Translations under genes and position numbers: made by a program
Part shown: positions 48,177-55,236 of the stretch, piece after piece
How the letters are laid out: each line of letters starts with the position of its first letter
Position numbering within the stretch: position 1 is the stretch's first letter
Source: Roseomonas sp.
GTDB lineage: Bacteria > Pseudomonadota > Alphaproteobacteria > Acetobacterales > Acetobacteraceae
Assembly: GCA_020249775.1 (NCBI GenBank)
Contig: JADCFA010000009.1
Coordinates: 124,001 to 188,000 of the forward strand
Reading direction: 5' to 3'
DNA length: 64,000 nucleotides
Notes under the pieces: generated by a model
Told to the model about the DNA's origin: nothing
Databases searched by the model: none
What the model saw: the letters and a program-made list of their open reading frames with translations, nothing else

Positions 48177-49032
48177 AGCAGGCTGCTGAAATTCGGACCC
48201 TTATCTCTGAATTTATGGTTGGCTGTCGTCGCATTTGGATGAGGTTGCATTGCATGGCAATGATGCGGTGTTTGGTTCCCTGTTCAGCTATGGTGATCTT
48301 CAAAAGCGGGTGCGCCCTGCCCATCCGCTGCGCGTTATTCGCGGCCTGATAAATAGCGCGCTGACTGATCTTTCTTCAGCCTTCGACGCGCTCTATTCGC
48401 CATTCGGTCGGGACTCCATCCCGCCGGAGCGACTGATCCGCGCCCTGCTTTTCCGCCGGTTCGTCGGCCTTTGCCTTGAGGACCCGGTGTGGGATGCCGC
48501 GACCTTCAGCAAAAACCGCGACCATCTATTTGCAGGCGATGTAGCCTTGAAGTCCCTGGCCGCATTACTGGCGCAGCCGAAGGTGAAGATTCTGCTTTCA
48601 AGCGAATATTTCTCGTTTGATGACACGCTGCTGGAAGCCTCGGCCAGCACCAAGAGATTCCGGCCAAAGGGCGGCTCTGGCCCGCCACCCGGCACTGGCA
48701 GCAACGGGGAGCAAAACTTCCACGGCCAGAAGCGCAGCAACGAGACCCACGCCTCAACCACCGACCGCGATGCAAGGCTTTATCGCAAAGGACGCGGCAC
48801 GGAAGCCAAACTGGCCTTCATGGGGCATGGGCTGATGGAAAGCGGCAACTGCCCGATCATCGGCGCTGTTGCCACCCATGCTTCCGGCGCGGCATGACGC
48901 CTGGGGTCCGTTACGAATGTGCTGCTGAGGCCAAACAATCACTGAAAATGGCCATCTTCAGACGGCGCCACCGCTGATGGCGGGCTGCAACGTCAAAAAC
49001 TATCGCGCATGACAGTTTTTCAGCAGCCTGCT
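48177..49032 (+). mobile_element. Internally deleted IS5-like insertion sequence with intact ends
   Basis: A perfect 15-bp inverted repeat bounds the element: AGCAGGCTGCTGAAA at 48177-48191 and its complement at 49018-49032. The 856-bp span holds one broken transposase gene. No clear target duplication is visible in the flanks. It sits between the fused dehydrogenase and a small secreted protein gene. Confidence 0.85.
48235..48897 (+). pseudogene. Broken IS transposase
   Basis: The frame carries typical IS5-group segments: FSYGDLQKRVRPAHPLRVIR, SIPPERLIRALL, DPVWDAATFSKNRDHL, LLAQPKVKILLSSEYFS, KRSNETHASTTDRDARLYRK and AKLAFMGHGLMES. About two dozen residues expected between the RALL and RRFVGL parts are missing in frame. 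The C-terminal catalytic part after HASGAA is lost, with only tail-like DNA before the right end. It is almost certainly inactive. Confidence 0.85.
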
Positions 49033-49616: not shown

Positions 49617-50594
49617 TCACGGCCAAACAGGCACGCCCTCCAGCCCAGCCGTTTCCGGCAGGCCGCAGATCAGATTCGCATTCTGGACCGCCTGGCCTGC
49701 TGCCCCCTTGCCGAGATTATCCACCACGCCCATCGCAATCACCAAGTTTCGCTCTGGGTCTGTTGCGTAGCTGACTAACGAAAGGTTCGACCCGGTCGCC
49801 CATTTGGTCTGCGGTGGCTTATCGGTCACGCGCACGAAAGCCCGCCCGTCGTAGAAGCGCCGCGCCGCGTCCAGGCATTGGTCCGTGGTAGTGCGACCGC
49901 GGCAGTAGATGGTCGCGAGTATGCCGCGGGTCATCGGCACCAAGTGCGGCGTAAATACCAGCCCGGCCGAGCTGCTGTCGCTTAGCCGCTCAATCGTTTT
50001 GGCCATCTCGGGCATGTGCGTGTGCTTCAGCAGACCATAGGGCACCAAATTCTCGTTGATCTCGGCAAAGCCGAACTTTGTGTCGCCGCCGCCCCGACCA
50101 GCACCGGAGATGCCGGTCTTGGCATCAATCACGATGTTGCCCGGTTCGATCAACTTATTGGCCAGCAATGGCGCGAGTGCTGTCAGCGCTGCCGCTGGAA
50201 AACACCCGGGATTGGCAATACGGGTCTGACCCGTAATCTGCGCCGGCCAGACATCAGCCAAGCCATAAGTCCAACCCTGAACGTAGCGATGGTCACCGCC
50301 GATATCGACGATCTTCACGCCCTTGGGGACACGCGCCAGTGCCTCGGCGGAACTGCCCGTGGGCAGTGATGCAAACAAAACATCGAGCTTCGGGAGCATC
50401 GCCGGGTCCCATTTCTCGATCACCATTTCGGCCAGCTTGGCTGGTACACCGGGGAAGCGATCCCCCAAGCGGCTGCCGGCGCTGCCCTCACCTGCGGCGT
50501 AGACCAATTCGAACGCCGGGTGGTTTGCGACTAGGCGCATCGCTTCGCCTCCGCCAAAGCCGCTGATACCGACAATACCAATGCGAATGCTCAT
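49617..50594 (-). CDS. argC: N-acetyl-gamma-glutamyl-phosphate reductase
   Basis: A 325-residue ArgC with NADP-binding GISGFGGGEA near the N-terminus, catalytic Cys131 in ANPGCFPAA, the middle KTGISGAGRGGGD segment and HLVPMTRGILATIY. It reduces N-acetylglutamyl phosphate in arginine synthesis. Its ATG overlaps the stop of the GNAT gene (ATGA), and the pair lies behind an arginine-rich leader and terminator. argJ is in this window but 5.6 kb away and on the other strand. It could be a second ArgC copy or serve a different acetylated intermediate. Confidence 0.9.
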   Translation of the reverse strand: MSIRIGIVGISGFGGGEAMRLVANHPAFELVYAAGEGSAGSRLGDRFPGVPAKLAEMVIEKWDPAMLPKLDVLFASLPTGSSAEALARVPKGVKIVDIGGDHRYVQGWTYGLADVWPAQITGQTRIANPGCFPAAALTALAPLLANKLIEPGNIVIDAKTGISGAGRGGGDTKFGFAEINENLVPYGLLKHTHMPEMAKTIERLSDSSSAGLVFTPHLVPMTRGILATIYCRGRTTTDQCLDAARRFYDGRAFVRVTDKPPQTKWATGSNLSLVSYATDPERNLVIAMGVVDNLGKGAAGQAVQNANLICGLPETAGLEGVPVWP

Positions 50595-51139
50595 GATGGT
50601 TTCCTGGTGCTGGAGTGCTCGTTGCCTGCGGCGTCGAGGCGCTTGCTCATGTATACAGTCGCTCCGAACTGCGGGTGCTCTTCCTCGCGATCAACCCGAT
50701 AGCCGAGCCTGTCGTAGAGTCGGATATTCTCGGCAAATCGCGCGTTGGTGTAGAGCCGCATCTCGCTCAGGTTGAGAGAGCGGGCGACTTCCTCAGCATG
50801 CGCCATCAGCGCGCTGCCATGGCCACAGCCCTGATGGGTGGGTACCACCGCGACGTTGACGATCAGCAGGTGGTCAGCCTTAGGCGCCATTTCGATCAGC
50901 GCCACGGCTTCGCCGTCCACACGCAGCAGGTCTATCAGGTGGTCGCGCACTCCCGCCTCGTAGTCGGCGGTCATCGGTCGCGGCTCCCGCCCGAGGATGG
51001 GCACCCACTTCGCGTAGGCCGCGCGGGCGAGGCAGCGGATGATCGTCACATCAGCGGTGGTGGCGCGCCGCAGCGTTTTCTGCCCGGCATCCTTGGATAT
51101 TTGTGGCGGATTGGGGTGGTCGGTCTTGCAATTCTGCAT
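50591..51139 (-). CDS. GNAT family N-acetyltransferase
   Basis: A 182-residue GNAT protein. Acetyl-CoA-binding motif A reads VVPTHQGCGHGSALM. The N-terminal AAYAKWVPILGREPRPM and the C-terminal ENIRLYDRLGY complete the fold. The acceptor is unknown. Because it precedes argC in an operon with an Arg-rich leader, N-acetylation of glutamate or a related amine is a possibility. The ATG at 51137-51139 has AGGA at proper distance; an upstream TTG falls in the terminator T-run and is rejected. Confidence 0.8.
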   Translation of the reverse strand: MQNCKTDHPNPPQISKDAGQKTLRRATTADVTIIRCLARAAYAKWVPILGREPRPMTADYEAGVRDHLIDLLRVDGEAVALIEMAPKADHLLIVNVAVVPTHQGCGHGSALMAHAEEVARSLNLSEMRLYTNARFAENIRLYDRLGYRVDREEEHPQFGATVYMSKRLDAAGNEHSSTRKPS

Positions 51140-51161
51140 GAGATATTCCTGCGAGTTGGGC

Positions 51162-51197
51162 AAAGAAAAACCCCCGAAGCCAGGGGCTGCGGGGGTT
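51162..51197 (-). terminator. Intrinsic terminator in the leader of GNAT-argC
   Basis: On the minus strand an 8-bp stem AACCCCCG/CGGGGGTT (51190-51197 with 51169-51176) encloses an inner AGCC/GGCT pair and is followed by TTTTTCTTT. It lies only about 23 bases before the GNAT start codon, so transcription of the operon must read through it. This is the expected terminator of an attenuator. Confidence 0.8.
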
Positions 51198-51234
51198 CAA
51201 AGATGCGGGCTGATGCCGCCTCAGGGTTGGACCG

Positions 51235-51345
51235 CTACAGGGCGGACCTCACCTTGGGAGGGGCGTGTCTGCACGCAGCTACAGAAGCCGCCGCTGAGAA
51301 GCAGCGACGGCGTCGGTTAGCGATGCGGCGGCAGGGATCGTCCAT
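51235..51345 (-). CDS. Possible 36-residue arginine-rich leader peptide
   Basis: A short frame beginning MDDPCRRIANRRRRC and ending VRSAL. Six of residues 6-14 are Arg, encoded CGC CGC then CGA CGC CGT CGC. There is no Shine-Dalgarno sequence; the proposed promoter puts the start site at its ATG, so a leaderless message is likely. A 10-bp hairpin (51302-51311 with 51287-51296; arms GCCGTCGCTG and CAGCGGCGGC) covers Arg codons 12-14, so a ribosome stalled there would open it. The strong terminator follows. Together these give the layout of a classical amino-acid attenuator. Confidence 0.5.
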   Translation of the reverse strand: MDDPCRRIANRRRRCFSAAASVAACRHAPPKVRSAL

Positions 51346-51352
51346 GCATTAG

Positions 51353-51382
51353 AAGCTAGTGGTTCACCTAAAAGCCTGTCAA
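51353..51382 (-). promoter_or_regulatory. Putative promoter of the GNAT-argC leader
   Basis: A perfect -35 TTGACA (51377-51382 read on the minus strand) and TAGCTT (51353-51358) are 18 bases apart. The predicted start site coincides with the ATG of the Arg-rich leader. The -35 lies inside one arm of a large inverted repeat. Confidence 0.5.
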
Positions 51383-51496: not shown

Positions 51497-52138
51497 CTAA
51501 TTCCGCGTCTGGTCTGGCACCGTTTCGTTAGGCGAGGGCCGGGCCTTCAAGAATTCTTCCATGCTTTCACAATGGAGCGCGAGGCGGTGAAGCTTCGGAT
51601 ACTTGTCCGCCGGAAACATATCGGGCACGCGTATTTTCATGTAGCCGAGCAGGCAGCCGGTGGTGATGTCGGCCTGCGTCATCTTTCCGTCAAAGAACCA
51701 AGGCGCGCCGCAGTCATGCTCCAGTTTGTCGAGCGCGGCCGAAATCTGCTGCATCATCCGCCTTTCGAAGTCACGGTTGATGTGCTTGTCGCTGTGGAAC
51801 AGCCGCTCGAAGGACAGAGCAACGCTCTTGTCCATCAACCCATGCGCCAGCACTACCGCCTGCAGCACCTTGCGCCGCTCAGGCCCATGCGGTGGCGTCA
51901 GCGCGCGGGCTGGTCCCGCCATCTCATCCAAGTGGTCGATGATGGCGGAGGAGTCGATCAGCACCTCACCCGATTCCAGAATCAGCGAAGGCACGCGTAC
52001 CAGCGGATTAATCTTTCGCATCTCGTCCATGTCGCGGAACACCGAGATCGGATTGCGCGTGTAAGGCATGCGGTAGTGATTGAGAGTCACCGCCACACGC
52101 CGCGCAAAGGGAGAGTCGAACTGGCCAACGAGGATCAT
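51497..52138 (-). CDS. Glutathione S-transferase family protein
   Basis: A 213-residue GST with an N-terminal thioredoxin-like domain (GQFDSPFARRVAVTL; SPFARR holds the likely catalytic Ser), the glutathione-contact segment RVPSLILESGEVLIDSSAI and an all-helical C-terminal domain with MTQADITTGCLLGY (N-capping Asp). The substrate is unknown. It is separated from the divergent-looking GNAT leader region by about 50 bases. Confidence 0.85.
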   Translation of the reverse strand: MILVGQFDSPFARRVAVTLNHYRMPYTRNPISVFRDMDEMRKINPLVRVPSLILESGEVLIDSSAIIDHLDEMAGPARALTPPHGPERRKVLQAVVLAHGLMDKSVALSFERLFHSDKHINRDFERRMMQQISAALDKLEHDCGAPWFFDGKMTQADITTGCLLGYMKIRVPDMFPADKYPKLHRLALHCESMEEFLKARPSPNETVPDQTRN

Positions 52139-52329: not shown

Positions 52330-55059
52330 TCAAACCCGCCCGTGACAAGCCTTGAACTTCTTCCCGCTCCCACACGGGCAAGGCGCATTGCGCGGTGTGC
52401 GGCCCCAGGTGCTCGGGTCATTCGGGTCCACTGCTTCCGGCAGGGAACGCGCTGACGCCGTGCCGATGGGTGCGGTGACGGGTGGGCCACCCACCTCCAT
52501 CATCTCGGCCCCCGCCAAAGCCGGGTCTGGATGGCGCATGTCAAACACGCCAATGCCTTCCGGCGCGGGCGGCGGCGCATCGGGGCGGATTTCAATGCGC
52601 AGCAACAGGCTGGTCACGCGTTCGCGTAGATTTTCCAGCATGGAATTGAACAGGCGGAAGGCTTCGCTTTTGTATTCATTCAGCGGGTCACGCTGGCCAT
52701 AGGCACGCAGCCCAATGCCCTGGCGCAAATGATCCAGTGACAGCAAATGTTCCTTCCAGGATTGATCGAAAATCTGCAGCAGCAGGGATTTTTCGATCTG
52801 GCGCATGATCTCCGGCCCCACATTGGCCGCACGAGACGCATAAGCCTGCGCCGCCGCCTGCATCAGGCGTTCGCGTACCGCATCATCATCAATGCCTTCT
52901 TCGCGCGCCCAATCCGCCACCGGCAGATCAAGGTTCAGGATTTCCTTGACGTCACGATCAAGCTTTTCCAGGTCCCATTGCTCGGGATAGGCGTTTTCGG
53001 GAATGGCGCGCGCGACGATATCGGCAATGGTTTCCTCACGCATTTCCGTGATGGTTTCAGCTACTTCATTCGCCATCATGAAGGCGCGGCGCTGGGCATA
53101 AACCTCCCGGCGCTGGTCATTCATCACGTCATCATATTTCAGCAGGTTCTTGCGGATATCGAAGTTGCGCGCTTCCACCTTTTTCTGCGCGCGTTCCAGG
53201 GCCTTGTTGATCCAGGGATGGACAATCGCCTCCCCTTCCTTCAGGCCAAGCTTTTGCAGCATGCCGCCCATGCGGTCAGACCCGAAGATGCGCATCAGAT
53301 CATCTTCCAAGGAAAGGAAGAAGCGTGAGGCGCCAGGGTCCCCCTGGCGGCCGGAACGGCCGCGAAGCTGATTGTCAATGCGCCGGCTTTCATGGCGTTC
53401 CGTGCCAATCACGAAAAGCCCGCCGGCGGCGCGTACGATGGGCCGTGCCTCATCCACCTCGGCCTTGTGGCGCGCCAGGGCCGTTTCAAATTCCGGCCCT
53501 TCGGAAGCATTGGCTTCCTGCCGCGCCAGCATTTCCAGATTACCGCCCAACTGAATGTCTGTGCCGCGGCCCGCCATATTGGTTGCAATCGTCACCGCGC
53601 CGGCACGGCCCGCCTGCGCCACAATCTCCGCTTCCTGTTCATGGTAGCGCGCATTCAGCACCTGATGCGGAATGTTCTTCTTCTTGAGCAGCGTTGAAAT
53701 CAGTTCAGATTTCTCAATGCTCGTGGTGCCCACCAGGCAGGGCTGACCACGCCCGCGCGCTTCCTCGATCAGCTTCGCAACCGCCTCATATTTTTCTTCG
53801 GCGCTGCGATAGACCTCATCATCCTGATCAAGGCGCGCGACGGGCACATTGGTCGGGATTTCCACCACATCCAGCTTATAGATTTCGGCGAATTCATCCG
53901 CTTCCGTCGCTGCCGTGCCAGTCATACCGGCCAGCTTGGGGTAAAGCCGGAAATAATTCTGGAAGGTGATGGAAGCGAGCGTCTGATTCTCCGGCTGAAC
54001 CGTCACATGTTCCTTGGCTTCCAAAGCCTGATGCAGGCCATCGGAATAGCGCCTTCCTTCCATCATGCGGCCGGTGAATTCATCAATAATGATGATCTTG
54101 TCCTGCCGGACGATATATTCGACATCGCGCGCAAACAGCGTGTGCGCCCGCAGCGCCTGATTCACATGGTGCACGAGTGACACGTTTTCCGTGTCATACA
54201 TATTGCCTTCCGTGAGCAGGCCGTATTGGCGCAGCAATTCTTCCACCCTTTCGCCACCCAATTCGGTCAGGCTGACGGTGCGCTGCTTTTCGTCCTTCTC
54301 AAAGGTGTCCTTGTCCTTCACCAGCTCCTTCATCACCTCATCGGTACGGCGGTAAAGGTCGGAAGTGTCATCGGTTGGCCCGCTGATGATCAGCGGCGTG
54401 CGCGCCTCATCCACCAGAATGCTGTCAACTTCATCCACGATGGCATAGGCGAAATCGCGCTGGACCATATCTTCCAGCCGATACTTCATATTATCGCGCA
54501 GATAATCAAAGCCGTATTCATTGTTGGTGCCGTAGGTGACATCGCAGGCATAGGCCGCCTGACGCTGGTCATCCGTGAGCCCATGCACAATCACGCCGAC
54601 AGTCAGCCCCAAAAAGCCATAGATGCGCCCCATCCATTCGGCATCGCGCTTCGCGAGGTAATCATTCACCGTCACCACATGCACGCCCTTCGCGGGCAGC
54701 GCATTCAGGTAAACCGGCAGGGTCGCGACCAGCGTCTTGCCTTCGCCGGTCTTCATTTCGGCGATCTTGCCTTCATGCAGCACCATGCCGCCGATCATCT
54801 GCACATCGAAGTGGCGCAGGCCCAGCACGCGGCGGGACGCTTCGCGCACGGTCGCGAAGGCTTCCGGCAGCAGCGCATCCAGGGTCTCGCCCTTGGCCAG
54901 TCTTTCGCGGAATAGCGCGGTCTGGCCCGCCAGCGCCTCATCGGAAAGCGCCTGCATGCGCGGTTCCAGCGCATTGATCGCGGGGACGCGGGATTGATAG
55001 CGCTTCAGGGCGCGGTCGTTGGAGGTGCCGAAAATAGCGGCTGCAAGGCGGGCAAACAT
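52330..55059 (-). CDS. secA: Preprotein translocase ATPase SecA
   Basis: 909 residues, canonical for alphaproteobacteria. Walker A GEGKT is at 105-109, the DEAD-type motif is [17 protein letters not shown], helicase motif VI is [13 protein letters not shown], and a C-terminal zinc site has C894, C896, C905 and H906 ([13 protein letters not shown]). SecA drives protein export through SecYEG. The ATG at 55057-55059 gives the normal [11 protein letters not shown] start; the frame is open 20 residues upstream without similarity. Confidence 0.97.
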
Positions 55060-55236
55060 CTGGCGCGTCAATCTCTGGCGGGCTCGCGCCCGTTCCTGGC
55101 GCCGGGGCGCCTTAAGCATGTTTCGGATTGGCGGCAGAGATAGGCTCCCCCGGGGGGCGGGTCAACGCTTGCGCCTTGTGGGGAAGGGGCGCATCGGTCA
55201 TGTTCCGGGCCGATCACCGATTTGGGACCAGCCCCT

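Follow-up and report, generated by a model that had tools for sequence, protein, structure and literature searches.

Can a bacterial arginine-synthesis gene be controlled by a ribosome-mediated attenuator? Attenuation of this type has long been known for histidine or tryptophan, and a version for an arginine gene was not found described among the literature matches listed. The question is raised by a locus in a 64,000-nucleotide stretch of Roseomonas sp. DNA (the window), where the initial annotation had proposed an arginine attenuator ahead of a GNAT acetyltransferase gene and argC. We consider it likely, with a probability of about 0.85, that this leader is a ribosome-mediated transcription attenuator which senses the supply of arginine. 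The switch is predicted by RNA folding models, and from the whole we infer the response to arginine.

Layout of the locus

All parts of the locus lie on the minus strand and run from position 51382 downward in the order TTGACA, leader frame, hairpin P1, hairpin P2, U-run terminator, GNAT gene and argC. The TTGACA promoter that had been proposed has its -35 box at 51377..51382, but its -10 box, TAGCTT (51353..51358; spacing 18), is poor and a simple promoter scan of the region did not list the pair. The same geometry is found in relatives.

The leader frame (51235..51345; ATG at 51345, TAG stop at 51237-51235) has 36 codons plus the stop and encodes MDDPCRRIANRRRRCFSAAASVAACRHAPPKVRSAL*. As described initially, it holds six Arg in nine residues, RRIANRRRR (RR-x3-RRRR). 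These are a pair at codons 6-7 (51325..51330), where many relatives have no RR, and the four control codons CGA CGC CGT CGC (Arg 11-14; 51304..51315). No Shine-Dalgarno sequence was seen ahead of the ATG, and the transcription start is predicted to lie at or adjoining the ATG, i.e. the RNA would be leaderless. Searches of the leader peptide against Pfam and NCBIfam gave no match, and PF10940, the speF leader peptide family, gave none at E up to 1 with the two leader peptides searched.

Hairpin P1 (51287..51311) pairs GCCGTCGCTG with CAGCGGCGGC over 10 bp and has Arg codons in its 5' arm. It had been said to cover the Arg codons of both groups; it spans codons 2-4 of the run of four, but the RR pair lies outside it. 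Region 2, GCGGCGGCUUC (51284..51294), overlaps the 3' arm of P1 and forms the 5' arm of the predicted antiterminator. The 3' arm of that antiterminator, GAACCCCCGC (51189..51198), overlaps the 5' arm of the terminator. Hairpin P2 (51205..51276) is long and irregular, and its apical loop contains the stop codon of the leader; the GCG part of GCTGCG (51274..51279), an element singled out in the initial annotation, is also the base of P2. The intrinsic terminator AACCCCCGCAGCCCCTGGCTTCGGGGGTTTTTCTTT (51162..51197) consists of a hairpin at 51197-51165 and a T-rich tail, and the GNAT start codon follows 22 bases past this tail, not 23 as first counted.

The GNAT gene (50591..51139; ATG at 51139, in-frame TTG upstream at 51163) matches PF00583 at 1.1e-12. 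Its protein reached no NCBIfam cut-off, and the closest solved chains are remotely similar at most; the gene may belong to arginine metabolism. The argC gene (49617..50594), for N-acetyl-gamma-glutamyl-phosphate reductase, scores 287.4 bits against TIGR01850 (cut-off 233.6), and its best PDB match is 1vkn (1.1e-73). With TIGR01850 above its cut-off, the gene behind the leader is an arginine-synthesis gene and its pathway matches the amino acid of the codon run.

This argC is a second copy. The housekeeping argC of the same genome matches TIGR01851 with 392.5 bits and lies directly after rplM and rpsI (neighbours judged by eye). Since this copy is present, the leader-linked argC need not be limiting. 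Behind argC in the housekeeping locus (L106 3126-5750; G000:C55) there is a gamma carbonic anhydrase-like gene (by eye), and co-transcription of argC with gamma carbonic anhydrase is named in the title of PMC2914000. No ArgR (PF02863) was found in the genome by a search that was positive in 8 of 14 control genomes.

Several other features surround the leader. Upstream on the same strand is a GST gene (51497-52138), and beyond it secA (52330-55119), with its true end at 52330. A decayed duplicate of the 3' end of secA (KQCKACHGRF*; by eye) lies at 51454-51424 on the minus strand, upstream of the leader, and in several relatives the secA end directly precedes the leader (by eye). The GST gene may have been inserted together with the duplicated secA tail. 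On the plus strand, a 245-aa open frame (50615-51352) runs antisense to the leader and the GNAT gene and is probably a by-product of GC-rich coding sequence. An IS5-type transposase-like fragment was seen by eye at 48235-48897 (+).

Conservation of the leader

The initial annotation had suggested that the leader be compared in homologous loci. The upstream regions of 16 GNAT genes align from the promoter through the GNAT start, and an argC search in 119 relatives found the leader directly ahead of argC where the GNAT gene is absent. The leader and terminator are therefore kept both with and without the GNAT gene. High-identity Roseomonas MAGs make up most of the named relatives, which also include Roseicella sp. 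DB1501 and Falsiroseomonas stagni DSM 19981, whose locus (L044) has the leader, a GNAT gene and argC in that order. The sequence upstream of the leader differs among relatives, being GST or the secA end, while the leader stays.

A set of 57 distinct leaders was gathered with a pattern that demanded GCTGCG and the terminator core; these two elements are thus not independent evidence within the set. RRRR is present in 53 of the 57 leaders and RRR in 56. The start codon lies 29-33 bases past the TTGAC hexamer in every leader (55 ATG, 2 GTG), and exactly 31 bases past it in 45. At position -12, the first of the four Arg codons of the window's leader, the tally is CGA 44 and CGC 11; at -11 it is CGC 42, CGA 12 and CGT 1; and at -10 it is CGT 37, CGC 13 and CGA 6. 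One leader (L147) is out of codon register in this tally because the pattern caught another GCTGCG. Across these leaders, then, Arg is kept at the control positions through synonymous codon change. The leader frame is probably translated, as suggested indirectly by the retained Arg identity and by a start codon that is fixed relative to the -35 box.

We also counted ATG-started RRRR frames of 15-60 codons on both strands of the window. There were 6, two of which are one frame with two ATGs, and only the leader frame has a perfect 7-bp GC-rich hairpin and a T run behind it, in a count for which a stricter version of the hairpin (loops up to 9) matched none of the 6, the leader itself included.

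Next to the leader, argC comes first in 32 of the 57 cases and GNAT-argC in 15; one leader each precedes SnoaL-argC and GNAT-gene-argC, and 8 precede a GNAT gene with no argC seen. Among these 8, one contig ends inside the GNAT gene (L042) and three (L013, L130, L136) have less than 1 kb beyond it. The 32 leaders directly before argC and the 15 before GNAT-argC indicate that the switch travels with argC. GNAT-argC had been named as the target. That arrangement is real, but with 32 leaders directly before argC and argC one or two genes on in 17 more, the main target is argC. In one genome (L097) a SnoaL_2 gene (PF12680) lies between the leader (845-1037) and argC (at 1501), which shows that unrelated genes can stand behind the switch. 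Another genome (G432) has three leaders, two ahead of GNAT genes and one ahead of argC; they lie at 1030-1220 and 8476-8665 of L137 and at 3421-3611 of L138, and two sit 7.4 kb apart on one contig.

A covariance model was built from 26 leaders and used to search 397 genomes of the family. Leaders of at least 78 bits were found at 43 places in 40 genomes; at E up to 0.001 the number rose to 55 of 397, the remainder being weak. The leader-linked type of argC (E up to 1e-80) is present in 42 of the 397, and 36 of these have a strong leader too. In three of the others (G065, G254, G458) inspection of the region upstream of argC found no leader. In G068 argC begins at a contig end, G445 has weaker leaders (53 and 42 bits) on contigs other than that of argC, and the sixth is G259. 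Conversely, four genomes have a strong leader and no argC match. In G139 a contig end cuts argC, and in G134, G189 and G285 the leader is before a GNAT gene. The comparison that had been named initially as a possible refutation thus did not refute the proposal, with leader, Arg codons, hairpins and terminator kept before argC in dozens of genomes.

Across the class, 26 of 385 genomes matched the model (E up to 0.001). Apart from the genome of the window itself, scores above 100 bits came from just two genomes, both of one other family, and both of their leaders precede an argC that is 87% identical to the window's. The remaining class matches score 40 bits or less. One truncated leader at a contig end (L148) scores 59.9 bits. 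A much more divergent sequence (L149 952-1127, MARRDLRIAARRRRGLP...; 42.5 bits) before a GNAT gene looks, by eye, like a true divergent leader, and more remote members of the leader family may exist.

Hairpins, terminator and covariation

The leader RNA folds at -88.4 kcal/mol, where shuffled sequences average -70.6 (z -4.3), and the terminator hairpin averages -19.9 kcal/mol over the 57 leaders. The initial annotation was right that a U-run terminator is present. A terminator scan found 4 sites in the region vs 3.1 in shuffles, one of which (stem 51188-51169) is inside the leader terminator, so the scan by itself is no evidence. Since terminator-like sites are no commoner than in shuffles and the promoter is not listed by its scan, the case rests on conservation.

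Most leaders fit three hairpins, namely P1, P2, whose loop contains the leader stop, and the terminator. Pairing was counted on two clade alignments, A4 (clade A, 38 leaders) and A5 (clade B, 12 leaders), which omit 7 divergent leaders of the 57 (L130, L136, L142, L144, L145, L146, L147). In clade A, 94.4% of cells are paired vs 33-54% with slid arms, and in clade B 93.7%, figures that favour the counted structures because these were drawn from one sequence per alignment. By part, clade A pairing is 98.9% for P1, 98.2% for the terminator and 98.9, 94.0 and 80.7% for the parts of P2. The outer pairs of P2, counted in 54 of 57 leaders (3 have no anchor), are kept in 51-54 of 54 at three of five positions and in 39 and 13 of 54 at the remaining two. 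RNAalifold on 26 leaders recovered P2 in part only, which is due to a cross-clade alignment that is poor in P2.

For the three hairpins, clade A has 7 double-change pairs; the shuffled mean is 2.4 and 0 of 500 shuffles reach 7. Slid controls also give 4-7 such pairs, and two score higher in covariation. No covariation beyond shuffles was found in the 12 leaders of clade B. In the 38 clade A leaders, 98.2% of the cells of the antiterminator helix pair, and this form has 7 double-change pairs, reached by 1 of 500 shuffles, with slid versions again giving 4-7. The pair of the helix that varies most is C-G in 19 leaders, U-G in 13, U-A in 4, G-C in 1 and unpaired in 1, and pairing is kept in 37 of 38. 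This one pair covaries in the alignment. Covariation overall is weak, and the modest support it offers reflects how highly conserved the sequence is.

Modelling of the switch

The switch was modelled in silico, with the ribosome treated as a block on a transcript cut before the 3' arm of the terminator, and folding probabilities were computed for the 56 of 57 leaders in which region 2 is present. Positions -12 to -9 are the four Arg codons of the window's leader. With the A site at -12, -11, -10 and -9, the antiterminator exceeded 0.5 in 27, 51, 54 and 54 of 56 leaders. It did so in 0 of 56 without a ribosome and in 0 of 56 with the ribosome at the stop. The window's own leader gave 0.72, 0.98, 0.99 and 0.99 at these codons, and 0 both naked and at the stop. 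A separate run scored the longest Arg run of each leader (53 leaders; 4 of 57 could not be scored). Here the antiterminator exceeded 0.5 in 50 of 53 with the ribosome at the last Arg and in 22 of 53 at the first, and in 0 of 53 without a ribosome or at the stop.

When the RNA behind the ribosome was left free, antiterminator means were 0.28-0.53 over the four Arg codons and the next two, and at most 0.12 at other A-site codons. The peak falls on the second and third Arg, where 31 of 53 leaders exceed 0.5, and the two codons past the Arg run still average 0.28-0.40. The terminator 5' arm was sequestered in 50 of 53 cases, vs 45 of 212 when the stretch that separates the Arg codons from the terminator was shuffled.

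These models make GCGGCGGCUUC with GAACCCCCGC the likely antiterminator rather than GCUGCG:CGCAGC, the pairing proposed in the initial annotation. As the main form, that earlier pairing did not hold up. With the ribosome at the first Arg codon, it exceeded 0.5 in 19 of 57 leaders and had a mean of 0.36; at the other three codons it did so in 0, 1 and 1 of 57, with means of 0.02-0.03, and the naked mean was 0.09. It is possibly a side state. In the model, the GCGGCGGCUUC pairing is exclusive with the terminator and with the control-codon hairpin.

In full-length RNA at equilibrium with a stalled ribosome, the terminator had mean probabilities of 0.81 and 0.79 and fell below 0.5 in 10 and 11 of 57 leaders. 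A ribosome at the control codons thus favours the read-through form in truncated transcripts but, in most leaders, not at full-length equilibrium. Because the terminator dominates there, the switch would need cotranscriptional timing, with the antiterminator forming first.

Proposed mechanism

RNA polymerase would initiate at or beside the leader AUG, and a ribosome would translate the leader. With ample charged tRNA-Arg, the ribosome would reach the stop codon, P1 would re-form behind it, the terminator would form and transcription would end before the genes. If tRNA-Arg is short, the ribosome would wait at the four Arg codons, cover the 5' arm of P1 and free GCGGCGGCUUC. The freed region would then pair with GAACCCCCGC before the 3' arm of the terminator exists, with P2 stacked inside, and the polymerase would continue into the GNAT gene and argC.

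Other explanations

The most improbable alternative, already disfavoured, is that an ordinary terminator of the upstream gene adjoins a chance Arg-rich frame in GC-rich DNA. The window has 5 further short RRRR frames listed, the GST gene shares the strand of the leader, and the terminator scan did not rise above shuffles. However, the leader persists where the upstream sequence varies; its frame, codons and hairpins are kept across 57 leaders, and the codon changes contradict recent ancestry alone. Hardly more probable is a ligand-binding RNA, a riboswitch or T-box for arginine or tRNA-Arg, in which the frame would be incidental. Such an RNA would suit the long, conserved P1 and P2, and T-boxes of arginine genes are known from the account in PMC1262725. 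It would not account for Arg identity that survives synonymous change or for the fixed spacing of the start codon, and Rfam gave no match between positions 48900 and 52400 of the window (E up to 1) or in five relatives' loci (gathering score).

A leader that responds to translation stress in general, or to a drug that targets the ribosome, as in erm-type systems, is very unlikely. The GNAT protein would then be a drug acetyltransferase and argC a passenger; its weak matches do include streptothricin and puromycin acetyltransferases, and an Arg-Leu-Arg motif is described for drug-sensing leaders in PMC8632094. But in 32 of 57 cases argC comes directly behind the leader without an intervening GNAT gene. 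What is conserved is a run of Arg codons whose spelling changes, and the ribosome positions that favour the antiterminator in the model are the Arg codons and the next two. Unlikely too, though less so, is a role in trans, besides or instead of attenuation, for the terminated RNA of the leader or for the Arg-rich peptide. For rnTrpL and peTrpL of Sinorhizobium, also an alphaproteobacterium, trans roles of an attenuator RNA and its peptide are described in PMC7298713, and conservation of our leader extends past the Arg codons. P1, P2 and the antiterminator pairing explain that conservation as well. An attenuator sensitive to arginine supply is the reading we prefer.

Significance

If it is confirmed, arginine joins the list of amino acids that classical attenuation can sense, here in a bacterium without an ArgR match. 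The locus would also be a natural test system, with four Arg codons, two clades that spell them differently, and related genomes that offer the switch before argC, GNAT-argC or GNAT alone. It would also point to this GNAT family as arginine-controlled. And it would suggest how a second ArgC might be kept for times when arginine is short, with the housekeeping copy tied to rpsI. A broader reading, which we hold tentatively and at slightly less than even odds, is that the leaderless attenuator is a small transferable module, one that stands before the second argC and that a single genome carries in further, separate copies before GNAT genes. Bacteria without ArgR would then have an attenuation-controlled arginine regulon, and the GNAT family would be implicated in arginine metabolism.

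Comparison with known systems

Proteobacterial amino-acid operons with ribosome-mediated attenuators include those with his, trp, leu, ilv, thr and phe leaders. Rfam includes families of amino-acid attenuator leaders, and proteobacterial attenuators were reportedly surveyed by Vitreschak and colleagues in 2004. In fungi, the arginine attenuator peptide (the arg-2/CPA1 uORF) couples a short frame and arginine to an arginine-synthesis gene. It acts at the level of translation, through arginine-dependent arrest in eukaryotes, and has no terminator, whereas the Roseomonas leader has one. T-boxes bind tRNA directly and have no leader peptide.

T-boxes serve arginine genes in other bacteria, a likeness in that arginine genes are controlled at the RNA level; for Actinobacteria, the arginine account of the same source sees no RNA structure before arginine operons (PMC1262725). 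A large attenuator survey does not contain the word arginine in its main text (PMC2965389). Among the open-access matches listed, we recognised no arginine attenuator before bacterial arg genes, and an earlier description is possible.

The nearest leader with Arg codons, as far as its published description goes, is ORF34 of Salmonella speF, a short leader of 34 codons with two consecutive Arg codons, at which ribosome pausing in low arginine turns the gene on (PMC6386406). It differs in controlling an ornithine decarboxylase via Rho, RBS masking and RNase G (PMC6386406), and in having a Shine-Dalgarno sequence and PF10940. The trpL attenuator RNA of Sinorhizobium meliloti (rnTrpL, peTrpL), the nearest alphaproteobacterial case, begins at the leader AUG and is leaderless (PMC7298713, PMC10117765), as the Roseomonas RNA is predicted to be. 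As described there, trpL has Trp codons, a 14-residue peptide and trpE(G); the Roseomonas leader has Arg codons, a 36-residue peptide and argC.

The closest likeness is to the his, trp, leu, ilv, thr and phe attenuators, with which the Roseomonas leader shares a short frame with a run of codons for the amino acid of the pathway, a predicted antiterminator exclusive with a U-run terminator, and a pathway gene downstream. It differs from them in its amino acid, in having no Rfam match and in a long P2 whose loop contains the leader stop. Conservation and folding models together support a classical-type attenuator with an unusual amino acid, apparently leaderless, in Roseomonas-like Acetobacteraceae.
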